Positions 8,579-54,715 of a stretch of DNA of 64,000 nucleotides are shown one piece after another (within the stretch, counting starts at the first letter, position 1; each line of letters opens with the position of its first letter). The stretch is from Rhizophagus irregularis (Eukaryota; Glomeromycota; Glomeromycetes; Glomerales; Glomeraceae). The DNA lies in the NCBI RefSeq assembly GCF_026210795.1, contig NC_089434.1:3658001-3722000 (forward strand). The letters are read 5' to 3'. The translations under genes and the position numbers were made by a program. The notes below the pieces were generated by a model. The model worked only from the letters and a program-made list of their open reading frames with translations. It had not been told where the DNA came from and searched no databases.

Positions 8579-11500
8579 ATGCTTGATTTCTTTACAATTC
8601 TAACGAAAGGTGGAATTGTTCTTTGGTCTAAATCTTTTACTCGTATTACTTCGTCACCGGTTAATTCTTTAATTGGAGATGTATTAATTGAAGAAAGGGC
8701 TGGAGAAAATAGTTATACTAAAGATTCTTATAGCTTAAAATGGACATTCGCAAATGAACTAGATCTTATTTTTGTGGTAAATGTCTAATAAAGTGAGTTG
8801 ACTTAGTGAGTTTGTCAACTACGGCCCTTAGTGTTTTTATTATATATACATATATATGTATATTTCGATACTTTAATTTATTATAACGAATATTTATTTA
8901 ACTAGGCTGCTTATCAAAAAATTCTTCAACTTGCATATATTGAAGAACTTCTTGCTACTGTCAAGAAATTCTTTTGTGATAAATTTGCCAATTTTATTAA
9001 AGACTCTGGTAAACTTCACAAATTCGATTTCGATGAGGATTTTGGCGCAATATTAAATAAAATCGAAGAAAAGGATTCCAAGGTTTAAAATATTCTTTAA
9101 TATTGTAAAATGAGGATAATTATTAATCTAATTATTTAGTTTATTATTATTTTTTTAGAGTCATGAGAAGTTATCTAAACCACGACCATTTGAAAAAACT
9201 AAAAAATTTAAAGAAACTGCAGAAGGATCGAAAAAACTTAGTTAGTAAATTCAACATAATATTATCTTATCGGTTTATTTTTTTAAGGGATAAACTTTTA
9301 TGATAAAAAAAAAAATCTTTTTTATTCAGGTGTGAGTGACATATCAAAACCTCCTACGAACCCAATTATCAGTGAAGACGAAATTGCTCGTAATATTGAA
9401 GAACTTCATCGATATAATGGAAAGCGTGGACGTGGTGGACGAAAACAGTCTGGAACTGGTAGACCTAATGTTTCATCAGAGTAAGTATAAGAACAAAAAC
9501 GGATTTATTTTAAATAAGTTTTATTTTGATTAATAATTGTTTATTATATAATAAAGCGAAAAGAAGCAAGCTAGAAAGAAAACAATGCGTGTATGGGATG
9601 ATAAAGTGTCAAAAGCAGAAATGGAAAGTTTGGATTATAGTGGAGATAAGGGTGATAGCGATAAATCGTCATCAGTAGATCCACAAAATTTGGTTGACCA
9701 AAATCAATTGGGTCAGTTTCAGGATGGGTATTATGAAGTACAAGATATAGGTCAAGATGACGACGAGGATGAATTTGAAGAGGATGATTATAATGAAACA
9801 AACGACACTTCAGTCGAAAATAATAGCGGATCTAGCATATTGTCATTTTTTAAAAGTATTACCGGACAGAAAGAAATTACAGAACAGGATCTCGTTCCAG
9901 TATTAGCGAAAATGAAGGAACATTTAATTAAAAAAAATGTTGCAGCTGATATTGCAGCTCATTTGTGTGATTCCGTTGCAAGAAATCTTGTAGGACAAAA
10001 GACCGGAAGTTTTAAGAGTACGTTTATGTTATGAATAAATTTTATAAAATTTCGTCATTAAATTAATCAAAATCTTCTCAACTCAAAAAGGCATTCAGTC
10101 AACTGTGAAACAATCCATGGAGATGTCATTGAAACGTATACTCACACCAAAGACATCGGTTGATTTGCTACGTGATATTGCGCAAGCTCAGTCCGATTCA
10201 CGTCCTTATACGATTTGCTTTATTGGAGTAAACGGTGGGTTAAATTTGTAAGATAGATAATAAAAATAATGATATGCTTATACGTTTATAATTTATATAG
10301 GAGTTGGTAAATGTTTTGCAAAGGGAACCAAAATTTTAATGTATGATGGTACACATCAAAATGTCGAAGAGCTCAATGTGGGAAATCAAATTATGGGAGA
10401 TGATGACAATCCGAGAACTATTCAGTCTACTACGAAAGGTGAAGGTATAATGTACCGTATTATCCCGAATGATAAGGGTCCAGCAAAATTTTTCGAATGT
10501 AACGATCAACATATTCTTGTACTTAAATTTGCTGCTGAACCATACATGCGAAGTGAAGAAATTCCCATCATAAATCGTAGTCCAAGGATTCGCCTCTTTT
10601 GGTATGAATATGACACACAGAATAACATGATCGTTAAAAAGAATGATTCTTTCTATTACGGCCCTGGCGAAGATTATCCTAAAAAAGAGGTAGCCAAGAG
10701 AGCAGCGATACGAGAAATGGCGAGAAGACCCAATCTTGTATCATCAGATTTCATTTGGGAGATACCAATTAAAGATTTCTTGACTGCGTCGGATGAAATA
10801 CAACGAAGTTGTCTTATGTTTAAGCCAAATCAAGTTATTTTTAAATCGGTACAAGGAAGGTTTCGCGTTATTTTAAGCAAAATTCTTGGAGTCAGCCCTA
10901 CTAATTCTCAAATTTCGGCTGCTTCATGGCTTGTTGGTGTTTGGATCGGTGGTGGAATTGTAAAATCACCCATTATTTATGTTAATGAAAATGAAAAGGA
11001 GATTTTAAGAGCTATAGAGCAATACAGTGAAATGTTGAATTGGAGATATATGAAAGAATTACATAAAGCTAAATTAGATGATTCAGAATGGAAAATTTCA
11101 TTTATGAGCGATAATGATATTGAAAACGGGTTCTATGTCCTTCTTCAAACGTTGGATATTTTGGACACTAAAAAAGTGACACCAGTTATTATGACTGATG
11201 AACTTGATCAGGTTTGATTAATTTTGTTTTTATATAATAATTAATTCGTTCAAGAGAAAAAATTGTGAATTAACTTTTTTTTTAATCTAATAGGTTCGCT
11301 TGCCTCTACTCGCTGGAATTTTAGACATTAGTAGCCATTTACTAGAAGAGAACAGAAATTACAGATATGTTTACCGGTCCCTTCACGAGCGATGTGAACA
11401 AATCTGTAATCTGGCAAATTTATCAGGGTTTTATTCTACAAACATAGTTTCAAACATGAAAGAGTGTTCAGATAATATAACGACCCCATCTTGTTGTACG

Positions 11501-12593
11501 ATTATCAGTGGCAATAAGTTAGAAAAACTTCCTTTAGTTATCTCACGTAAGAAAGTATTCAGAAATCGTGATCATCCCAAATTTAATCGCGATATGGTAT
11601 GGGGATTTAAAGTAGAAAAAGTTGGCCTTGGGTCATATTATGGGTTCAAGGTTGATAAAAACGAGCGTATTTTACTAGCAGATTTGACAGTGAGTCATAA
11701 TGTGAGTCTTTTTATTTTTTTTTAAAAAAAGCATGTGCTTTTTTTTGATTTATTATTAATTAATTATGTATATCCTCTCTTATTAGTCCACAAATTTATC
11801 AAAGACTTGTTTTTGGTTATTACAAAACGGATTAAAGGTCCTTATTGCAGCATGTGATACTTTTAGATCAGGTGCCGTAGAACAATTAAGAGTACATGTT
11901 AGGAATTTGAATGCTTTAGGTCAAAATTCAAATGTTGAATTATATGAACGTGGATATGGAAAAGATGCTGCTGGGATAGCAAAGGATGCTATTAATTACG
12001 GTATGTATAAAATTGACTACGGTGGAGACTTGTTGTTGACATATTTTTACATTTTTAGCCAAAATAAACAAATTTGAGGTTGTATTGATCGATACGGCGG
12101 GACGTATGCAGGACAACGAACCATTAATGCGAGCGTTAGCTAAGGTATGATACTGATCGTATTATATATATATTTTACGCGATCTTTTTGAACTAATTTT
12201 AATTTACACTATTAGTTGGTTTCGGTGAATAATCCCGACAAGATTATATTCGTCGGTGAAGCATTAGTTGGCAATGAAGCCGTTGATCAACTCACGAAAT
12301 TTAATCAAGCTTTGAAAGATTTTTCAGGGTTACAAAATCCAAGACATATAGATGGAATGATTTTGACGAAATTTGATACAGTTGATGATAAGGTTTGGCG
12401 GAAATGATATTAAAGACTAACATATGGTAATCAAACACTAACTAAAATTTTTTATTTGGAACAGGTTGGGGCAGCCTTATCAATGACTTATACAACCGGA
12501 CAACCGATTTTATTTGTTGGAACCGGTCAAACGTATACAGACTTAAAGAACATGAGAGTTGGACATATCATTCACTCTCTTCTTAAAGAATGA
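8579..12593 (+). CDS. SRPRA: signal recognition particle receptor subunit alpha, with an intein
   Basis: This GTPase of the ER membrane binds SRP54 and releases SRP-ribosome complexes at the translocon. Inferred exons: 8579-8776, 8906-9082, 9159-9240, 9330-9480, 9557-10017, 10091-10234, 10301-11211, 11294-11701, 11787-12000, 12059-12144, 12216-12392, 12465-12593. All joins keep frame and use GT...AG. The product is 1045 residues; without the intein it is 609, close to yeast and animal homologues. Visible parts: N-terminal SRX domain ([20 protein letters not shown]), acidic linker, helical N domain from about 9840, and the G domain with GVNGVGK/STNLSK (P-loop), [27 protein letters not shown] and a GTGQTYTDL closing motif. 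The intein lies between the P-loop Lys and Ser. The start is the only ATG that opens the SRX domain. Identification is firm. Confidence 0.95.
10312..11701 (+). other. intein (VMA1-like, decayed LAGLIDADG endonuclease) in the P-loop
   Basis: The 436-residue intervening protein is encoded by 10312-11211 plus 11294-11701 (82-bp intron between). Block A begins with Cys1 ([13 protein letters not shown]). Block B is CNDQHILVL with His67. The last block is [16 protein letters not shown], followed by LTVSHN; the next host residue is Ser (+1). These are the residues needed for splicing, and length and block spacing resemble the yeast VMA1 intein. The two endonuclease helices read [10 protein letters not shown] and [10 protein letters not shown]: the active-site Asp is Gly in the first and Ser in the second, so DNA cleavage is probably lost. 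The usual block F His is Glu. Protein splicing would restore GVNGVGKSTNLSK. A host intron starts directly after the final Asn codon (11702-11786). Confidence 0.93.
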
Positions 12594-40572: not shown

Positions 40573-42354
40573 TCATTTACTCATCGGTGTATGGTAAGTC
40601 TTTAATAATTCTCCATTTACAGGTATCTTCTTGATGACACCTTTAATATTTTTAATTCTATAAGCTCCATTCGGTAGTATTTCATGAATGTAAAATGGTC
40701 CCAACCATTTTGATTCTAATTTTCCCGATAGTTGTTGTGCTTTGGCTTTATCATAGAGTAGTATTTTATCTCCAATTCCAAAGGTGTGTTCTTTGATTAT
40801 TTTTCTGTCATGATACTCTTTTTGTTTTGTTTGAGATTTCAGTATTTGTTCTTTGGCTTCATGTCGGATTTTTGGTAGTTCTTCTAATAATCCAACTATT
40901 CTATCACTTAGGTTAATTTCTTTGATATTTTCATCCATTATTGTCCGTACATTTCTTCCGTATGTTAAATAAAATGGTCGAATTCTTGTTGAACTATGCT
41001 TTTTATTTCGGTAAGCAAATAATATGGGTGCTATCCTTTGATCCCAATCATCTTTGGTTGATAATTTTGCTAATGCTTGACCTAATGTTCGGTTGAATCT
41101 TTCAACAAGTCCGTTTGTCTCTGGATGATAACTTGTAGAAAAATTCCATTTAATTTTGAATTTTTCCATTAATTCCTTAATCATTTCATTATTGAAATGA
41201 CTTCCTCTATCACTCAATATTTTCATTGGACATCCATGTCTACAAATGATGTCTTCATAAATAAATTTTGATACTTCTTTGGCAGTTGCTTCTTTTACTG
41301 CTTTGGCTTCTGGCCATTTTGTAAAATAATCCATTGCTACTATGATGTATTTATTACCATTTGTTGTTGTGTTCAATGGTCCCACAAAGTCAATCCCGAT
41401 TTGATACCATGGTTCTACTACTTTAATTGGGTGTAATTCATTTTTCCCTTGTGGTTTTCCTCTTCTTTGACATTCATCACATGTCCTTACATATCTTTCA
41501 ACATCATTCAGCATATTTTCCCAATAATATTTATCTTTTAAATTATCATAAGTACTTTTGATTCCCATATGTGCCGATAATTCATGACTGTGAGCTAAAT
41601 ATAGTGCTCCCATCTTTTCAAAGTCTTCTATTATTCTGATGTTTTTACCATTTTTCTCAATATGCTTTTTACCATCAGTTACTCTGATGTTATCCTTAAT
41701 CTCAACATTTTTAACCTCTATTGGTGGTTTATCTCCATCTAATTCTATTACTTTATTATATACTCTTTCCCAATCTGTGTCATTATTCGATATTTTAATA
41801 TTAGCATATTTTTCTCCTTCGTAAATATCTTGACATTCTTTAAATGATTTCACCATCTCCATATATCTTTCTTCATCTAATAATGGATATGATGTTTTAT
41901 GTCCTTGATCCTTTTTCGAATATTCTCTACCTTTGTAATTTTCCCAACATTTTTCATTTTCTAAAAATATCACTATTGATTCATCAATTATCCTTTTGTT
42001 CCTAAATACTTCCTTTTCTAATAGGTGGTTCTCATATCTTGTTATGTATCCTCTGTCGAATGATGGTGTATGTTGATAAAAGTACTCACTATAGGGACTT
42101 TTATCTAATATTAACCAATCCTCATTATCATGTTCTTCCATTCTCCTGTTGATTTGTTCGACAACTTCCTTCCTGAATTCCCATTCTATACCTTTCTTTG
42201 GTATTTTATACTTATCATTGTCCTCTCTTCTCCTTTTAAAGGTGTTAAACCTCACACTTTGTCCTACTTTTTCAAATTCTTTTATAAGTTTATTTACAAT
42301 GAATGTTTTTCCAGTACCATCAACTCCACATATGATTATTATTTTAGGTCCCAT
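40573..42354 (-). CDS. integrase with N-terminal nucleotide-kinase-like domain
   Basis: 593 residues. Residues 1-205 resemble thymidylate/deoxynucleoside kinases: hydrophobic strand IIIIC then Walker A GVDGTGKT (10-17), WLILDKSPYSEYF (80-92) at the place of the family's DR/S motif, VIFLENEKCWENYKGRE (128-143) as the strand plus LID-like segment. After a linker comes a gypsy integrase: zinc-binding H257/H262/C292/C295, catalytic core with D322 (IGIDFVGPL), D382 (SDRGSHF) and E418 (NGLVERFN) in D,D35E spacing, and a GPF-type C-terminal module (LGPFYIHEILPNGAYRI). No chromodomain is seen. The ATG overlaps the stop of the small upstream ORF. Integrase identity is firm; the kinase-domain call is from motifs only. 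Confidence 0.9.
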   Translation of the reverse strand: MGPKIIIICGVDGTGKTFIVNKLIKEFEKVGQSVRFNTFKRRREDNDKYKIPKKGIEWEFRKEVVEQINRRMEEHDNEDWLILDKSPYSEYFYQHTPSFDRGYITRYENHLLEKEVFRNKRIIDESIVIFLENEKCWENYKGREYSKKDQGHKTSYPLLDEERYMEMVKSFKECQDIYEGEKYANIKISNNDTDWERVYNKVIELDGDKPPIEVKNVEIKDNIRVTDGKKHIEKNGKNIRIIEDFEKMGALYLAHSHELSAHMGIKSTYDNLKDKYYWENMLNDVERYVRTCDECQRRGKPQGKNELHPIKVVEPWYQIGIDFVGPLNTTTNGNKYIIVAMDYFTKWPEAKAVKEATAKEVSKFIYEDIICRHGCPMKILSDRGSHFNNEMIKELMEKFKIKWNFSTSYHPETNGLVERFNRTLGQALAKLSTKDDWDQRIAPILFAYRNKKHSSTRIRPFYLTYGRNVRTIMDENIKEINLSDRIVGLLEELPKIRHEAKEQILKSQTKQKEYHDRKIIKEHTFGIGDKILLYDKAKAQQLSGKLESKWLGPFYIHEILPNGAYRIKNIKGVIKKIPVNGELLKTYHTPMSK

Positions 42355-42583
42355 TTTTACATAATTCTGATAATTCTAGCTTGTTTACTTTACTTAATAT
42401 CACCTCTATTTGTAATATTTCCTCTTGAGTTTCCAATATTAATGGTCTTTCTTCACTATCTTCAAAATTTTTGGCTTTGAATTTATAGTTATAATTTATC
42501 CTGTTTAATTCCTTTGTTATACCTTCTAAATTTTCGATTATATCCTTTATTTTATGATTTGTATTTCTTACCACTTGTTCCAT
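42344..42583 (-). CDS. small coiled-coil-like ORF between RT and integrase
   Basis: 79 residues beginning MEQVVRNTNHKIKDIIENLE, rich in Glu/Lys/Leu/Ile with heptad-like spacing, so probably helical. It begins 35 bases after the RT-RNase H stop, in a different frame. It ends with TAA at 42344-42346, overlapping the start of the kinase-integrase ORF by 11 bases. The overlap suggests stop-restart coupling or a frameshift that fuses it to the next protein. No known family. Confidence 0.55.
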   Translation of the reverse strand: MEQVVRNTNHKIKDIIENLEGITKELNRINYNYKFKAKNFEDSEERPLILETQEEILQIEVILSKVNKLELSELCKNGT

Positions 42584-42618
42584 TTTATTTTTGAAAAGTA
42601 ACTCTTTTACCCCTCTAT

Positions 42619-44100
42619 TTATATTATTCTTGATAAGGCATCTGCATTTTTATTTTCTTTTCCTGGTCTATGGGTTATTTCAAAATCATACTGTTCCAAT
42701 TCCATGACCCATCTTGATCTCTTTCCTTTTGGTACTTTTGCAGTCATTAATCCCTTCAAAGCTGCATGGTCTGTTACTACCTCAAATTTTCTATTGATCA
42801 AGTATTTATGGAAATGTTGTATTCCCCATACAATTGCATAACATTCTTGTTCGGTTATTGGCCATCTTTGTTCTGTCCTGTTTAAACTTTTACTGGCATA
42901 TTCTATTACATATTCTTGACCTTTATCATCTTTTTGAGCTAACACTGCCCCTAATCCTATTCCTGAAGCATCTGTGATTAATATAAATTTCCTTAACCAA
43001 TCTGGTTGTCTTAACACTGGTTCTTCGGTTAATTTCCTTTTTAATATTTCTAATGCTTCATGTTGTTTGATGCCCCATTCAAACTTTTCATCTTTTCTCA
43101 ATAAAGATGTTATTGGTTTTACTATTTTTGAAAAATCTTTAATAAATTTTCTATAATACGTACATAACCCCAATATTGACCTTACACCTTTTATATTTAT
43201 AGGTGCTGTTAATTTTTGTATCTTTTCAACCTTTCCTGGACTTGGTTTTAATCCATTTTTACCAACTACATGTCCTAAAAATTCTATTTCTGTTTTTCCA
43301 AATATACATTTCTTTAACTTTAGTATTAAACTGGCTTCCTTTAATTTTTCTAACACTAACTTTATGTGTTTTAGGTGGTCTTCAAAATTTTCCGAATATA
43401 TCATTATATCATCAATGTATACTATCACAAATTCATTTAGGTACTCCTTTAATACTTTATCCATTAACCTTTGAAAACTTGCAGGTGCATTTGTTAACCC
43501 AAATGGCATGACATTATATTCATATAATCCTGCTGAGCATATGAATGCTGTTTTCTCAATATCTTCCTCAGCCATTTCTATCTGATTAAACCCTGATGCT
43601 AAATCTAGACTGGTAAACCATTTTCCTGAACTTATCCTTTCTAATTGTTCATCAATCCTTGGTAATGGATATGCATCTGTTATTGTAACTTTATTTAATT
43701 TTCTATAATCGATGCAAAACCTATAATTTCCAGACTTTTTCCCTGCTAAAGTCACTGGTGAAGACCATGGACTTCTAGATTCTCTAATTTTTCCCAATTT
43801 TAACATCTCGTCAACCTCTTTTCTGATGAATTTACCTTTTTCATCATTTTCTTTGTACCTCTTTTGGGCTATTGGTTCAGTACCCCCTTTTAATCTGATT
43901 TCATGTTTTACTAGGTTTGTCCTATTATATTTTTCACCATCGTACTCAAATATATCCTTATATTTTTCTACTAATACTTTTAATTTACCTTTTTGTTCAT
44001 TGGTTATGTCCCCTACTTTAAATTTTTCAGTAAATTTTTCATGGTCACTTTTGTGCTTCTTTATCGTCTCTTCAGTATCATTCTGACCAAGACTTATACT
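42619..44100 (-). CDS. pol: reverse transcriptase-RNase H (pol)
   Basis: The frame is open from 44100 and reads to the stop at 42619. It holds an N-terminal connector (DITNEQKGKLKVLVEKYKDI), the RT domain with PLPRIDEQLERI, FTSLDLASGFNQI, MPFGLTNAPASFQ and the YIDD active site (VIVYIDDIMIYS), and RNase H with ILITDASGIGLGAVLAQ, TDHAALKGL and HRPGKENKNADALSR. There is no ATG before MLKLGKIRES at 43806, which is inside RT, so translation must come from upstream. The protease stop (44094-44096) lies just past the start of this open frame, in the frame that needs a one-base backward shift. All catalytic motifs look intact. Confidence 0.93.
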   Translation of the reverse strand, partial: SISLGQNDTEETIKKHKSDHEKFTEKFKVGDITNEQKGKLKVLVEKYKDIFEYDGEKYNRTNLVKHEIRLKGGTEPIAQKRYKENDEKGKFIRKEVDEMLKLGKIRESRSPWSSPVTLAGKKSGNYRFCIDYRKLNKVTITDAYPLPRIDEQLERISSGKWFTSLDLASGFNQIEMAEEDIEKTAFICSAGLYEYNVMPFGLTNAPASFQRLMDKVLKEYLNEFVIVYIDDIMIYSENFEDHLKHIKLVLEKLKEASLILKLKKCIFGKTEIEFLGHVVGKNGLKPSPGKVEKIQKLTAPINIKGVRSILGLCTYYRKFIKDFSKIVKPITSLLRKDEKFEWGIKQHEALEILKRKLTEEPVLRQPDWLRKFILITDASGIGLGAVLAQKDDKGQEYVIEYASKSLNRTEQRWPITEQECYAIVWGIQHFHKYLINRKFEVVTDHAALKGLMTAKVPKGKRSRWVMELEQYDFEITHRPGKENKNADALSRII

Positions 44101-44633
44101 TTAAAATTTTCATCTTCCTGACCTTCATGGTCATCTTCATATATGTTATACAATTCATCCTGGTATAATTCTTCTAATATTTCCTCTTCATCAAATGTTT
44201 CTTCAAACCCTTTAATGGTCCTTTGTGTGTATTTTACTGGTATATCCATAGTTTCATCATTCATTCTAATTATTATTGTTTTATCTGTGTAATCTATATT
44301 TGCTTTGAACATATCTAATACTCCATTTCCTAACACAATTTCGTTTTTTCCTGAATCAATTACTTCAACCTTAATGGGTATTTCTTTATCCCCAAATTGT
44401 ATGTATATTGTCGTGGTACCCCTAGATGCTAATTTATCCTCATTTATCATCACACATCTTACTGTACTCGGTTCCTCAATTTTTAGGTCCATTTCATCCA
44501 TTATCTGACTAGTTATTACATTTACTGCTGCTCCTGTATCAAACATTACGTCCTTTAATTCTTGGTTTATTATTAATTTACCTCTTAATGCAGTTAAATG
44601 CTCTGCTTCAATGTTGTTCATTGATTCTTGTAG
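44094..44633 (-). CDS. retropepsin-like protease, read through from Gag
   Basis: The segment continues the Gag frame after a single TGA (44634-44636). An ATG at 44621 is also available. The active-site motif is VMFDTGAAVNVIT, followed by the expected flap and hydrophobic strand region (IVLGNGVLDMFKANIDY). A long acidic tail follows (EEETFDEEEILEELYQDE type composition). The protein would mature Gag and Pol. The frame ends at 44094, where RT begins in another frame. Confidence 0.85.
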   Translation of the reverse strand, partial: LQESMNNIEAEHLTALRGKLIINQELKDVMFDTGAAVNVITSQIMDEMDLKIEEPSTVRCVMINEDKLASRGTTTIYIQFGDKEIPIKVEVIDSGKNEIVLGNGVLDMFKANIDYTDKTIIIRMNDETMDIPVKYTQRTIKGFEETFDEEEILEELYQDELYNIYEDDHEGQEDENFKV

Positions 44634-44636
44634 TCA
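44631..44636 (-). promoter_or_regulatory. UGA CUA stop-codon read-through signal between Gag and protease
   Basis: Gag ends ...ACA GAT TGA CTA CAA GAA TCA ATG, and the same frame stays open for the whole protease. UGA followed by CUA is the best known leaky-stop context in eukaryotic viral and cellular genes. The arrangement predicts a minority Gag-protease fusion. An in-frame ATG 15 bases after the stop leaves re-initiation possible. Confidence 0.6.
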
Positions 44637-47600
44637 ATCTGTTTGTGGATACCTTCTCATACCATCATAATATATTTTTCTTTGTTCTGGGCTCATATCT
44701 ATAATTTGTGAAAAAGTTGCATTTGCTCTGGTACTTTTCATATCCTCTAATACGTTATATTTTGGTATATTTCTTTGAAATGCGCTTGTCCTATGAATAC
44801 CTTCAACACGTTCATTTTTACATTGTTTTGCATAGTGACCTCTTTGTCCACAATTTCCACATGTATTATTATTTCTCCTTGCTTCTTGTGCTTTCCTCAG
44901 ACTTTCATCAGTGAATCCCCTTTTTGGTAATGCTGCTGCCCTTTCCTCTTGGCTTGCATATTTATTATTTCTTCTTCGTGTTTGTTCTTGGTCAATTTCC
45001 ATATCTATATCTCGATCACTTGACCTATTTTTTATGTTACTTCTCGTTTGTCTTTCACCTATATAAAAATCTTGATCAACATGGTTAAATGTTACATCAT
45101 TATCTTGATAATACGGGTCGTCATAACTATATCCTTGATCATAATTATCCTGATAATCCTGACTATCATAATCATATTGGTCATATTGGTCATTATAATT
45201 ATCATATTCCACTACATTGAATCCTCGATTATTGTTTTGGTGGTTTGGTGGTCTGTTATAGTTATTTGGTCTTCCATTATAGTTATTTGATCTTCTATTA
45301 TAATTTTGATTATTTGGTCTTCCATAGTTTCTTTGACCATTATTTACCCTACATTCATTTGCATAATGTCCTGGTTGTTTACAATTATAACATGCTCGAG
45401 GTGGTGGTCCTTGTCTATTATTATTGTTTGGTGGTCTCTTTTGCCCTCCAAGTTGATTTACTAGTTTTACCTCTAATTTTTTAAACATGTCGGCAAGGTC
45501 ATCCTCATAATTTTTCTCCAATGGTTTTTCAAATATATTCTTTGGTTTGTCATCTTGTATATCGATTCCTTTTCTTTGGGTACTAACTGATATACCATGT
45601 GTCTTTCTTATTAATTCATTAGTAGCTTCCTCTTCTCTTCTTGCTGTATTCACTGCATCATTTAAATTTGCTGGGTTTTGTCTTCTGACTTGATATCCCA
45701 ATGTTGGTGTTAATCCTTCGATATAATTATCCACTTGTAATTCATCATCTAATGCATGGCCTCTGGTAGCTATCCTTAATATTTGTCTAAACCTTATCGT
45801 ATATGCCTCAACATTTTCATTTACTCCTTGTGTTATTTTCCTTAATTCTAACATTTTCCTTTTTCTAACATCTTCCCTGGTAAATCTTTGTTTAATCCTA
45901 TGTTTTAAATCATTATCATTATCGTTATCTTGCCAATTTACCAAATGACCATTGTTTGCTTCCTTCTTTTCATTATACCATTGTGCTGCTGCACCTTTCA
46001 AACAGGTAGCTGCCATTGCTGCTTGTCTAGCTCCATTTACTCCTGCTGCTTTTCCTATAGCAGTAAATGCTGTTTCAAATTGTCTTACCCAATCGTTTAC
46101 GTCTTCTTCTTCCCTTCCATAAAATTGTGGCATACTAATTATTCCTCCAGCTACATTTCCTGCATCCTCAATTGCATTTGCTAATGGGTTGGCTGCGACT
46201 AATCCAGCCCAATTACCTCCTATATCATGTCCCGTTGCTGCTAGTAAAGCCGCTCTAAAATCTTCCCTTACTTCAGCTCTTGTTGCTCCCATAATTATTG
46301 GTACTATTGGTAGAATTGGTGGTATCGGTGGTGTTAAAGGTGTTTCAAATAAATTTTCTATATTATAATCAGATATTTCGCTTTTATTTTCAGAATTTGA
46401 TTCTGAACTTTCACTTGAGTCAAAACCAGGTCTATTTATAATGTTTTCTTCATAAGGTTCTTCAAAATTTTCATTGTTATCAGTATCATTTGGATTTAAA
46501 ATTTCTCCGTCTTTTCCAGATCCATCTGATTCTTTTTCAGATCCATCAGATTTTTCATTATCAGATTCATTTCCACTACTTTCACTATCCTCAATTCCAG
46601 CTTGCTGTTTTAGAAATTTATCTAATATTCGCCTTAAATTTTTCTCCATTTCATTTTTATTTCCTTGGAATATTTCAATAAATTCTTGATCCAATATTTC
46701 TCCATCAGTATATCCCATACTGATTAACCTCAATAACTCTCCATTAGTTATTCCTATTTTATTATCATCACATACTTGTTTCAATCTTTTAACCCTGATA
46801 TCAATTTCATTTTCGTCATTCTCACAATCCCTACACTTGGTTTTTCCTTCGTCAAATTTATTGTTCATCCATCTTATTCCACATTCATCACAAAATGTGG
46901 TATTTTCATTTATCCATTCATATAATTTTATCCTTAATTCTTTGTCATTCGTATTAATTTCCTGGAAATATTTTTCCATAAATTCCGTTGTTAATATTAT
47001 ACTATTGCTTATCCTGAATTCTCTTATTCTCCCTATTTCTGACACATTTAATTCGTATCCTAGTTTTTCTAAGTCATCCTTTAATTCTAATAACTCTTTT
47101 TGTTCACAATTTTTACATTGTCCAATGTCTGCTATCATATCAGGTAACTTTCTATTTCTACAATTTCCACATCTTAATGTTTCTTTTGTTAACCATTCAT
47201 TTATTTCATCCTTCAATTTTTCATCACTTAATCCCATTAATTCGGAAAATGTACCTAAAAAGTCCTCTGTTAATATCAATTCTATCCTTATCCTTAGGTC
47301 CCACATTCTTTGTATATCTTTGTCAGTGAACCCTCCACCCATTTCTTCAATTTTTCTTTTTAATGATTCTACTGTCCATTCGACATCATCCTCTATTTTT
47401 ATTTCATAATGTATACTACCATCACTGTCCTCCAATTCATAACTTTCAGGACTAGCACTTTCTGGGTCTTCAGGTTCCCTTGTAAATTGTTTGGTGTCAA
47501 TAAATCTTTGTAACACTTTCCGTATCAATCTTTCCCATTCTTGTTGTTTTGATTCTTCCTTTCCTAATGAGTTTCTGTAAACAATTGTATTCGTTAAATC

Positions 47601-48218
47601 AATTACTTCTCTTATTTTTTTAGTTATGGTTTCTTCCATGTATAATAATTTCCTGAATATTACTATCGTTTCTGGTGTCGCATGGATTACTTCCACCCCA
47701 AATTCTAATATTGAACCGTACCATTCCCAAAATTTTTGAAATCTGTTTTCAATATCCCAATCTTCCAAAATATATCCATGTTCCATTATTTCTGGACATC
47801 CAATTAACCGGTCAAATACTTCATTTTCCAAGTTTCCTTCAATACAATCCCTTACAATTACTACAATTATTATTCTCAATCCTTTTTCCTTCATTTTTGG
47901 TTGTTGTCTGTACCTTATTGATTCAATTATTCTATCTACTATATTCCTACATTTTCCCTTATGTATTGTATCCTCCCTTTCTCTATTGTCCATACTTAAT
48001 AAATTCAATAATTCTTTATGTGTTACATTATTGTACATTAGTATTGTATCCTCAAATTTAAATAAAGCATCCCAAAATTTCTTGAATGCCGCTGATACTT
48101 CTCTTTCTATTGGATTACATATTTCACATGCTAAACATTCCTCTGGTTCTATCACTCCTAGGTCATGTTCTTGTTTATGGTTTATATATTCAGCGTTCCA
48201 AACATGGTACCATTCCAT
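44634..48218 (-). CDS. gag: Gag polyprotein with long Cys-rich N-terminal extension
   Basis: 1194 residues, several times a usual gypsy Gag. The central part (about 640-880) is a standard retrotransposon Gag capsid-like region (AAQWYNEKKEANNGHLVNW, then LKHRIKQRFTREDVRKRKML, then VEAYTIRFRQILRIA). Two CCHC zinc knuckles follow: CYNCKQPGHYANEC and CGNCGQRGHYAKQC, with Asn/Tyr/Arg-rich stretches around them. The N-terminal 560 residues are unusual: CLACEIC near residue 28, then three related modules of about 80-110 residues, the first two ending in paired CxxC motifs (CGNC...CKNC and CDECG...CRDC), then an acidic Ser/Asp/Glu tract. The N-terminal part is not a family I know. Confidence 0.9.
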   Translation of the reverse strand: MEWYHVWNAEYINHKQEHDLGVIEPEECLACEICNPIEREVSAAFKKFWDALFKFEDTILMYNNVTHKELLNLLSMDNREREDTIHKGKCRNIVDRIIESIRYRQQPKMKEKGLRIIIVVIVRDCIEGNLENEVFDRLIGCPEIMEHGYILEDWDIENRFQKFWEWYGSILEFGVEVIHATPETIVIFRKLLYMEETITKKIREVIDLTNTIVYRNSLGKEESKQQEWERLIRKVLQRFIDTKQFTREPEDPESASPESYELEDSDGSIHYEIKIEDDVEWTVESLKRKIEEMGGGFTDKDIQRMWDLRIRIELILTEDFLGTFSELMGLSDEKLKDEINEWLTKETLRCGNCRNRKLPDMIADIGQCKNCEQKELLELKDDLEKLGYELNVSEIGRIREFRISNSIILTTEFMEKYFQEINTNDKELRIKLYEWINENTTFCDECGIRWMNNKFDEGKTKCRDCENDENEIDIRVKRLKQVCDDNKIGITNGELLRLISMGYTDGEILDQEFIEIFQGNKNEMEKNLRRILDKFLKQQAGIEDSESSGNESDNEKSDGSEKESDGSGKDGEILNPNDTDNNENFEEPYEENIINRPGFDSSESSESNSENKSEISDYNIENLFETPLTPPIPPILPIVPIIMGATRAEVREDFRAALLAATGHDIGGNWAGLVAANPLANAIEDAGNVAGGIISMPQFYGREEEDVNDWVRQFETAFTAIGKAAGVNGARQAAMAATCLKGAAAQWYNEKKEANNGHLVNWQDNDNDNDLKHRIKQRFTREDVRKRKMLELRKITQGVNENVEAYTIRFRQILRIATRGHALDDELQVDNYIEGLTPTLGYQVRRQNPANLNDAVNTARREEEATNELIRKTHGISVSTQRKGIDIQDDKPKNIFEKPLEKNYEDDLADMFKKLEVKLVNQLGGQKRPPNNNNRQGPPPRACYNCKQPGHYANECRVNNGQRNYGRPNNQNYNRRSNNYNGRPNNYNRPPNHQNNNRGFNVVEYDNYNDQYDQYDYDSQDYQDNYDQGYSYDDPYYQDNDVTFNHVDQDFYIGERQTRSNIKNRSSDRDIDMEIDQEQTRRRNNKYASQEERAAALPKRGFTDESLRKAQEARRNNNTCGNCGQRGHYAKQCKNERVEGIHRTSAFQRNIPKYNVLEDMKSTRANATFSQIIDMSPEQRKIYYDGMRRYPQTD

Positions 48219-48384
48219 TTTTAATAAAATTCTCTAAAAATTTTCACGTCTTTTACTTTTTATCCTTCTTTTATATTTTATTTGACCTATACTGGGCTTG
48301 CCTTTACCTCATTTGTTCATTACTGAGTATGGTAGTTTACAGGTTTGTACAAATAATTTTATATTTTTCCTTAAAATTCCCAAC

Positions 48385-50710: not shown

Positions 50711-53700
50711 ATGTCACAAATTGATATAGATTGTGAAAAATGTGGCGACACATACACATATGTAGAAGATGGATGGTGTAGACCATGTCAAATAGATAAT
50801 TTTAAAAAAAATCTTACAAATTGGACAAGCGGAAATGAAATCATTGATAATTTAATTCAAAAAAAAAATCAAGATATTTATGGACCAAATGATATAATAT
50901 TTGAATGGATACCATACAATCAATTGAATGATATTAAAGAAATAAACAATGTTTTATATTTGGCAATATGGAAAGATGGTCCATTATACTATTGTCATCA
51001 CAAAAAGGAATATGTAAGGAAATCTAAGAATGAAAAAATCATTATTTTCAGTTTGTATGATTTACCAATTATTACCAATGAATTTTATGATAAGGTATGA
51101 AATGATTTTATTTAATCCAAAATTTTAATATATAAATATATATTTAATTGAAATATTTTTTTTTATTATTTATAATAGGTTAAATCATATTTTTCAGAAT
51201 ATTATTATTTATCAATACATGGAATATCTCAAAATCCAAATACAAAAGAATATTTTATGGTTTTTCAAGATGATCATTGTGAAAAATGTGGTAAAAAATA
51301 TACAACAGTGAAGTACAAATGGTGTGAATCATGTCAAATAAATTATTTAGAGAAAAATTTTACAAATTGGACTAGTGGAAATGAAATAGTTGATAATTTT
51401 ATTCAAGAATTTCAATTAAAAATTAATGATTACAATGATATAATAATCGAATGGATACCATATGACCAGCTTAATAATATTAAAGAAATAAGAAAAGATG
51501 GTTTTAGTACAATATATTCAACAATATGGGAGGACGGTCCTTTATATTATTGTCTTTATAAAAAAGAATATAAAAGAAAGTTAGGAAAAAAACAAGTTGC
51601 TTTAAAATATATGCATAATTCACAAAATATTACCAACGAATTATTAAGCAAGGTATGAAATTTAATATAAATATTTTTTTTTATATTGTTTTTTATACTA
51701 ATTAATTTTCAAATAAAGGGACGTAATAGTAATGCTCTTCCGATATATGGAATATCACAAAATCCAGATACAAAAGATTATATAATAGTTATTCAAGATG
51801 AATATTGTGAAAAATGTGGTGAAGAATATACAAACATATTTTATAAATGGTGTAAACCATGTCAAATAAGCAATTTAAAGGAAAATTTTATAAATTGGAC
51901 TAGTGGAAATGAAAAAGTCGATAATTTCATTCAAGATAGGCAACTAAATCATATTGATCGCTACAATGATCCAATACTTGAATGGATATCATACGAACAG
52001 TTTGACAATATTAAAGAAATAAGCAAAAATGGTATTATTACAATATGTACAGCAATATGGAAAAGTAGTCCATTAAATTATGATATAAATAAAAAAATAT
52101 ATAAGAGAGATTTTATAAATCAAAATAAAAAAGTTACTTTAATATGTTATAATACACAAGATATTATTGAATTTTTAAGCAAGGTAAGAAAGTTTCTTAT
52201 AAATTTCCTTTATATTATATTATTTTTTAGTAATGTTTTTTTCTTATTTTTAATAGGATAATTCAAAGTTATATAGGATTGATAATATATATGGATTAAC
52301 TCAAAATCTAGATACAAAAGATTATATAATGTTTCTTAAAGATAAATATTGTGAAAAATGTGGTGAAAAATATACAAATAAATTTTATAAATGGTGTAAA
52401 CCATGTGAAATAAATTATCTAAAGAAAAATTTTACAAATTGGACAAGTGGAAATGAAAAAGTCAATAATTTTATTCAAGAATTTCAACTAAAAATTAATC
52501 GTTATAATAATATAATAGTTGAATGGATACCATACAATCAGTTTGATAATATTAAAGAAATAGGTAAAAATGATTTATTTACAATATATTCAGCAATATG
52601 GAAAAATGGTCAGTTGATTTATGATAAAAATGAAAGAATATATAAAAGAAATTTAAAAAATCAGAATGAAATAGTTACTTTAAAATCATTTAATTCACAA
52701 AATATTACTGAAGAATTTTTTAATAAGGTATAAAATTTTTCTTTATTAATTTATTTTATTTTAATTATTTTGGTAATATTTTATTTTATTTTATTAGAGT
52801 AACAACTCTGTATACAGTAATAAAATATATGGAGTATCACAAAATCCAAATAATCCAAATACAAAAAATTATATTATAGTTATAAAAGAGATATATTGTG
52901 AAAATTGTGGTAAAGAATATACAGATACATTTCACAAATGGTGTAAACCATGTCAAATAAGCAATTTGAAGAAAAATTTTACAAATTGGACCAGCAAGAA
53001 TGAAAAAATTGATAAATTTATTCAAGAAATGCAATTAAAAAATTTTCATTTTACAAATATAATAGTTGAATGGATACCATATGAACAGTTTAATAATATT
53101 AAAAAAATAAACAAAGATGATTATATTACAATATGCTCAGCAATATGGAAAAATGGTCAGTTAAATTATGATCAATATAAAAAAATATATCAAAGAAATT
53201 TAAAAAATAAGAATCAAAAAATTACTTTAAAATTTTACAACTTGCAAGATAATGCTGATAAATTTTTTAATGAGGTATAAGATTCAGTTCTTTAATAAAT
53301 TATTTTATTTTATTTTCTAATGAAAATATTTTTCTAATAGGCTAATGATAATAAAATAATATATGGAATATCTCAAAATCCAGATACAAAAGATTATATT
53401 ATGGTTATTGAAAATATATATTGTGAAAAATGTAGTGAAATTTTGCATGATTCTTGGTGTAAATCATGTCAATTAGGTTATTTAAAGAAAAATTCTATAA
53501 ATTGGACCAGTGGAAATAAAAAAATCGATGAACTTATTCAAGAAATGCAATTAAAAATTAATGATAAATCTGATACAATATTTGAGTGGATACCACACAA
53601 TCAGTTTAATAAGATTGAAGAAATAGGTAAGGGAGGATTTGCCATAGTTTATTCAGCAATATGGAAGGACGGTCCATTATTTTACAAAGAAAAATTTAGA

Positions 53701-54715
53701 AGAATGAGTGGTAATAGTAGTAAAGTCGCTTTAAAATATTTGCTCAATTCATCACAAAATATTATTGATGAATTTTTAAATGAGGTAAGAAATTATATAT
53801 ATATATATATATACTGTATATAATTAAATTTTATTTTATATAAAATAATAAATTTTTTACACATTTTAATAGATTAGAGCATATTCTCTTAATTATAATG
53901 AAAATATTATCCGAATATATGGATTGTCTCAAGAACCAAATACAAAAGATTATATTATAGTTCTAGGCTATGCACGCGGAGGAAATTTATATTATCAGTT
54001 AAATAAAAATTATGATAAATTTAATTGGACGCATAAATTAGATTTAACATTGAATATTATTACAGGACTTATAAATATTCATCAAAAACAAATGGTTCAT
54101 CGTGATTTTCATGTAGGAAATTTATTAGTTGAACAAGAAACTGTATCCTTATTTAATAAAATATTTATTTCAGATATGGGATTATGTGGAGAAGTCAGTA
54201 ATATAAAAGATGAAAGCAAAATTTATGGAGTTATGCCTTATGTAGCCCCTGAAGTGTTAAAAGGTAAACCTTATACTCAAGCAGCAGATATATACAGTCT
54301 TGGCATGATTATGTATTTTATAGCAACTGGAAAACAACCTTTTGCCAATTGTGCACATGATGAGTTTTTAGTATTAAATATATGCAATGGAATTAGACCT
54401 GAAATAAACGAGTCAGAAATACCAAAAATTTACATTGATATAATGAAAAAGTGTTGGGATTCAAATCCAAATAATAGACCAAGAGCTATTGACTTAGAAA
54501 AATCAATTAGATCATTTTATTTTGGTATTGATATCTTTAATGATGAGGAAATTAAAAAGCAATTTGAAAAAGCAGAAGAATATAGAAAAGTAAATCTTTT
54601 ATCTATTAAAAGTAATCAATCAACTACTCATCCAGAAGCTCATTACACATCTCGATTACTTAATCCATTTACAAAAAATCTTTATTCAATGGAAGTTATT
54701 GACTTCACAAAGTAA
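50711..54715 (+). CDS. protein kinase (TKL-like) with six tandem N-terminal module exons
   Basis: Inferred exons: 50711-51094, 51179-51652, 51719-52183, 52257-52727, 52798-53274, 53341-53784, 53873-54715, all phase 0 with GT...AG introns; 1185 residues. Exons 1-6 each carry a CxxC...WCxxC ribbon (CEKCGEKYTN...WCKPC), NWTSGNE, EWIPYNQ and part of a kinase N-lobe. Exons 2-6 begin with a hinge-like piece (YGISQNPDTKDYIMV). Only exon 6 has a good glycine loop and lysine (EIGKGGFAIVYSAIW, SKVALKYL). Exon 7 supplies the C-lobe: MVHRDFHVGNLL, ISDMGLCGE, GVMPYVAPEVL, ADIYSLGMIMYF, NPNNRPRA. Such kinases are vastly expanded in Rhizophagus; substrates are unknown. The multi-module form could be one long protein or alternative exons. 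Confidence 0.8.

Follow-up and report, generated by a model that had tools for sequence, protein, structure and literature searches.

A putative PI-SceI-type intein in the P-loop of the signal recognition particle receptor of Rhizophagus irregularis

An insert in the SRPRA P-loop

The window analysed here is a stretch of 64,000 nucleotides from the fungus Rhizophagus irregularis (RefSeq assembly GCF_026210795.1, contig NC_089434.1, positions 3,658,001 to 3,722,000). Its forward strand carries, at 8579-12593, a gene for SRPRA, the alpha subunit of the signal recognition particle (SRP) receptor, whose 12 exons, when joined across eleven GT-AG introns, encode a precursor of 1045 amino acids. An in-frame insert of 436 amino acids (precursor residues 409-844) lies between the Lys and Ser of the P-loop, GVNGVGK/STNL. 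The host sequences on either side, the exteins, hold the domains of SRPRA in order: the SRX N-terminal domain (SRP-alpha_N, PF04086, E = 1.6e-50), the N domain (SRP54_N, PF02881, 4.2e-13) and the GTPase domain (SRP54, PF00448, 2e-43). Without the insert the joined extein has 609 amino acids, of which residues 1-608 align with 1-637 of the SR alpha chain 5l3q_B. The precursor is as long as the public R. irregularis protein OCT59_026542 (P0001), with 100% identity between the two over residues 400-850.

The insert is, we conclude with high confidence from sequence comparison and structure prediction, a full-length class-1 intein of the PI-SceI/VMA1 (Hom_end_hint) type. The Pfam family Hom_end_hint (PF05203) spans insert residues 1-435 (E = 1.9e-21; 77.6 bits against a curated cut-off of 32.1) and PI-SceI matches the entire insert (E = 3.6e-16); these similarities are far beyond chance. 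The initial annotation had proposed an intein at this bond from a Cys1, a block B His, a C-terminal His-Asn and a +1 Ser, and these are found as C409, H475 (within N472-x-x-H475), H843-N844 and S845, the residues of a class-1 intein. Its placement is borne out by the Pfam and PI-SceI matches and by homologues with an insert at the identical bond; its start, end and length were exact, the range it gave, 10312-11701, additionally holding an 82-bp intron. The predicted structure shows a Hint fold that would bring both splice junctions together. The model retained was built from an alignment of 40 rows of intein-bearing proteins only (A2) and is usable within the intein; the exteins mostly score below 50 (overall mean 57.9; predicted TM-score, pTM, 0.52) and their fold is not read from it. 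A first model, from a mixed alignment of 50 intein-bearing and intein-less rows (A1), had been discarded since residues 404-482 and 792-845 fell below 50 confidence.

Table 1. Features of the SRPRA gene and its insert (window coordinates).
Feature	Position	Strand	Remarks
SRPRA exons 1-6	8579-8776, 8906-9082, 9159-9240, 9330-9480, 9557-10017, 10091-10234	+	N-extein to GVN-G
N-extein, final 11 bases	10301..10311	+	Remainder of Gly, then V-G-K of P-loop; opens exon 7
Putative intein, residues 1-300 (exon 7)	10312..11211	+	Cys1, block A, block B NxxH, degenerate LAGLIDADG motif 1 (WIGGG)
Spliceosomal intron inside the endonuclease part of the intein	11212..11293	+	GT-AG, 82 bp; precursor without it matches the length of P0001
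Putative intein, residues 301-436 (exon 8)	11294..11701	+	Degenerate LAGLIDADG motif 2 (GILDISSH), C-terminal splicing block, penultimate His, terminal Asn
Phase-0 spliceosomal intron exactly at the intein/C-extein bond	11702..11786	+	AAT/GTGAGT...TTAG/TCC
SRPRA exons 9-12	11787-12000, 12059-12144, 12216-12392, 12465-12593	+	C-extein GTPase domain; first residue +1 Ser

Protein splicing and its alternatives

By homology, the insert would leave by standard class-1 protein splicing. The spliceosome would remove the introns, and the mRNA would still encode a 118-kDa precursor with its P-loop split between Lys408 and Ser845. Once the Hint domain has folded, Cys1 would attack the Lys408-Cys1 bond (N-S shift), Ser845 would receive the N-extein, Asn844 would cyclise and an O-N shift would join Lys to Ser, releasing a free 50-kDa intein and a 68-kDa SRP receptor with an uninterrupted GVNGVGKSTNL. 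The junction peptide predicted for the spliced receptor is IGVNGVGKSTNL. The +1 Ser would serve as splicing nucleophile and afterwards as the P-loop serine. The SRP receptor is very probably active only after self-excision of the intein, and we infer that SRP-dependent secretion depends on protein splicing; in this major plant symbiont, a failure of splicing at the P-loop bond should abolish GTP binding.

The insert might instead be an open-frame intron that the spliceosome cuts out of the mRNA, which would make protein splicing unnecessary. Spliceosomal introns do flank it, one 11 bases upstream and one exactly at its 3' end, and a public gene model bypasses it. An mRNA without the insert and with a restored P-loop, the counter-case named in the initial annotation, is nevertheless disfavoured on the DNA: none of 13,581 single introns (GT-AG, GC-AG or AT-AC; 10,321 with a 5' end at 10302 or beyond and 3,260 with one in exon 6 or intron 6, all with 3' ends before or just inside exon 9) restores GVNGVGKSTNL, and skipping exons 7 and 8 together shifts the frame. 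Because no single intron tested restores the P-loop, we place removal of the insert at the protein level, for which RNA splicing could probably not easily substitute. The bypassing model, the public entry Srp101p of DAOM 197198w (P0104), reads GVNDLTSTNL; an 8-nt pseudo-exon at 11682-11689 reproduces its junction, at the cost of the P-loop Lys and with it the P-loop. We rejected P0104 as a true intein-free allele on account of this pseudo-exon route, which was traced in the DNA of the window (that of DAOM 197198w itself lay outside the comparison); it is probably a gene-model artefact or annotation error. Removal as an intron would also leave the intact splicing residues unexplained, and we regard it as very improbable.

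We give the same small weight to the reading that the intein has decayed and lost its ability to splice, another gene or nucleus supplying the receptor. The endonuclease residues of the intein are lost, and ten decayed copies of the gene and/or the intein lie elsewhere in the genome, so decay is common here. On the other side, all splicing residues are kept in five of five SRPRA inteins, and the C-terminal GTPase part is 95.5-99.0% identical in the four other intein-bearing proteins. Genome searches covered the 146.7-Mb assembly (32 contigs, the window lying on contig C6). A search with the SRP54 domain, which does not depend on the intein and scored all 46 candidates, finds the SRPRA of the window, decayed copies on C1 and C17 and, on C2, SRP54 itself, its P-loop uninterrupted; the window gene is, on this evidence, the sole intact SRPRA found in the genome. 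More improbable still is an assembly chimera or contamination, the other counter-case of the initial annotation. We found no support for it, and five public SRPRA proteins have the insert at the identical bond, namely those of R. diaphanus, R. clarus and Funneliformis caledonium and of two R. irregularis clusters, of which one is tagged RhiirC2. The window moreover belongs to a 5.7-Mb contig, and older copies of the gene plus insert lie elsewhere in the genome.

Some points weigh against a splicing intein in the sole receptor gene. Among the R. irregularis entries seen, P0104 alone has no intein; the exclusion of a second intact SRPRA comes from a single kind of search, that with the SRP54 domain; and transcription, inclusion of the insert in the mRNA, actual splicing and the inability of the precursor to bind GTP are all steps that we infer from the sequence.

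Endonuclease decay, descent and genomic copies

An active LAGLIDADG homing endonuclease has an Asp in both of its motifs, at positions that we take to be D218 and D326 of PI-SceI. The five SRPRA inteins read G/S, G/N, G/S, G/S and N/G at these positions, with Asp at neither (0/5), and so lack the mark of an active enzyme; across the alignment, both Asp residues are present in 18 of 40 rows, and the eIF5B rows (n = 16) include no such case. In the comparison of R. irregularis with F. caledonium, identity is 78% over the splicing blocks and 58% over the endonuclease part (p = 3e-4). Very probably the homing endonuclease is inactive and the intein immobile, with its splicing residues kept. The other comparisons tell against this: the contrast with R. 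clarus (85% against 77%) is not significant (p = 0.09) and there is none with R. diaphanus, while the limits of the regions were drawn by hand, with a 113-residue middle part (69% identical to F. caledonium) left out of the contrast.

The SRPRA intein appears to be confined to two genera among the proteins read. A search with the intein region gave 103 proteins, the five best being the intein-bearing SRPRA proteins named above; among the 120 matches listed out of 7,994 candidates scored with the joined extein, only those same five hold an intein domain by Pfam. Eleven intein-less SRPRA entries were read, comprising P0104, the unnamed P0105 and nine from named Glomeromycotina (Diversispora and Entrophospora, two each, Ambispora, Gigaspora, Dentiscutata, Paraglomus and Acaulospora). 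The host protein is continuous without the insert in these relatives, GVNGVGKSTNL being unbroken in seven of the eleven (P0105, P0106, P0108, P0109, P0113, P0115 and P0200); in P0107, P0111 and P0114 the gene model is broken near the P-loop. The SRPRA inteins form a single clade (support 100/100) whose branching order is that which we assume for the hosts. As its endonuclease is very probably dead, the intein would have been inherited vertically since an ancestor of Rhizophagus and Funneliformis, and one gain in that ancestor followed by vertical descent is the simplest reading of the sequences. Its presence across genera raises the question of whether such an intein persists through the improbability of a precise loss or whether splicing regulates secretion.

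A genome search with the intein gave 31 matches: two in the SRPRA of the window, two in eIF5B and 27 at ten further places (L019-L028), one each on C1, C11 and C18 and seven on C17 within about 0.5 Mb. All ten copies are broken by stops, frame shifts or a missing start. Nine retain extein remnants and the C11 copy is intein sequence alone; since the query was the intein, their intein content is by construction and they are uninformative on empty copies. The alignments run through introns, which indicates copying at the DNA level. The C1 copy, which begins inside the intein, is 94% identical, and its differences from the window fall evenly over the three codon positions of the intein (7/333, 5/333 and 8/334), a pattern that would fit a pseudogene and gives no signal of selection on the intein.

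Elsewhere in the window, positions 40573-48230 of the reverse strand hold the open reading frames (ORFs) of a Ty3-type retrotransposon, namely gag with a zinc knuckle, reverse transcriptase/RNase H and integrase. The integrase ORF has an N-terminal P-loop domain with a GVDGTGKT motif and weak matches to AAA_28 (E = 5e-5) and AAA_22 (3e-4), below the Pfam cut-offs; an integrase with a P-loop domain would be an odd fusion. On the forward strand, a series of similar short ORFs (CEKCG..., NWTSGN...) extends over 51179-54715, ending in one with a protein kinase domain (PK_Tyr_Ser-Thr, 1e-33, from a Pfam scan of this final ORF only), and is perhaps a tandem kinase gene family.

Junction introns and known inteins

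Within the PF05203 family, a search of the genome gives two inteins, those of SRPRA and eIF5B. The eIF5B intein (L029, on C30) lies at the GK/T of the P-loop and has, like that of SRPRA, a phase-0 GT-AG intron at its C-terminal junction (AAT/GTAAGT...GCAG/ACC). Both introns start directly after the codon of the terminal Asn and end directly before the +1 codon. The chance of an intron at one given SRPRA bond is about 0.0035 (11 introns in 3,135 coding bases), and two such coincidences are unlikely to be accidental, for a pattern spotted post hoc with n = 2. In each of the five decayed copies that extend across the bond the SRPRA junction intron is alignable, which implies that it is older than they are; L019 and L026 retain both splice sites, L023 and L024 have lost the acceptor, and the donor of L025 is the site of an insertion. 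The eIF5B model of F. geosporum (P0223) jumps from HN to TNVQ, which hints at a junction intron there too; the other Funneliformis and Rhizophagus models read HN-TKLL with no jump, which says nothing either way.

Retention of the junction intron, in SRPRA or eIF5B, leads to a stop just past the intein (one reads THN-VSTNDFSVYIIIYLF-stop), and would therefore leave a stump of N-extein and intein unable to splice, a possible switch. That RNA and protein splicing meet at the same bond by more than accident, the intron having been carried in with the intein or gained in repair of the endonuclease cut, and that they may form such a switch, is a speculative proposal to which we assign a rather low likelihood. 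The junction introns nonetheless offer a concrete clue to how inteins enter intron-rich genes.

The element is of a well-known kind; what is new is its host protein, SRPRA, with which the gate of co-translational secretion joins the short list of intein-containing nuclear proteins. The belief of the initial annotation that no SRP receptor intein was known stands as far as description goes: none was found in the literature on inteins with SRP receptor/FtsY or mycorrhizal fungi, at the level of titles and abstract openings (the supplementary tables of Green et al., 2018, lay outside this scope). It does not stand for databases, where public entries already hold SRPRA and intein domains together. 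In its main text, Green et al. (2018; PMC5784728) gives two inteins for R. irregularis and eIF5B inteins for Glomeromycota and Chytridiomycota; that text has no occurrence of 'SRP' or 'signal recognition'. The SRPRA intein is probably counted in its supplement, because the Hom_end_hint search also gives two.

The SRPRA intein is about 20% identical to PI-SceI of Saccharomyces cerevisiae VMA1, from which it differs in host gene, in site and in the replacement of both catalytic Asp residues. The +1 residue, Ser here, is presumably Cys in VMA1. The P-loop bond itself is, we assume, occupied by site a of RFC inteins and not by the yeast VMA1 site. The likening of the two sites in the initial annotation was loose in this respect; it holds in that VMA1 sites a and b, 20 residues apart, are placed in the catalytic nucleotide-binding site in the portion of the source used (PMC2814812). 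The same portion gives RFC site a as Lys51/Thr52, which is, like the SRPRA bond, one between Lys and a hydroxyl residue in a nucleotide-binding protein; the host proteins differ.

The eIF5B intein of R. irregularis shares the Pfam family, the GTPase P-loop and the junction intron and is 43% identical to that of SRPRA over residues 1-219, in a different host gene. The best 120 of 911 matches place eIF5B inteins in many early fungi (Glomeromycotina, Coemansia, Dimargaris, Mycoemilia and Cokeromyces), in proteins that include P0219-P0227, P0008, P0230 and P0292. Those of Glomeromycotina (n = 8) form their own clade (100/100), and Gigaspora rosea and Acaulospora colombiana have the eIF5B intein with an SRPRA free of one. 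An origin of the SRPRA intein from the eIF5B intein of the same genome was considered and is not shown: the free tree, built without P0220, P0223, P0024 and P0030 (no clean intein cut) and with P0227 truncated at its start, places SRPRA elsewhere with low support (80/75), and a joint clade is neither supported nor rejected (approximately unbiased test, p = 0.108). A clade of SRPRA with the AAA inteins P0006 and P0228 is also not rejected (p = 0.223). P0006, a P-loop intein of AAA ATPase/helicase type from metagenomic/viral contigs, is the best match outside SRPRA (35% over 99%), and relatives are encoded in at least 536 of 600 candidate stretches of IMG/VR. The metagenomic/viral AAA ATPase and helicase inteins cut for the tree sit mostly at GK/[ST], as in SRPRA, in different host proteins; P0006 and P0228, unlike the SRPRA intein, retain an Asp at both endonuclease positions.
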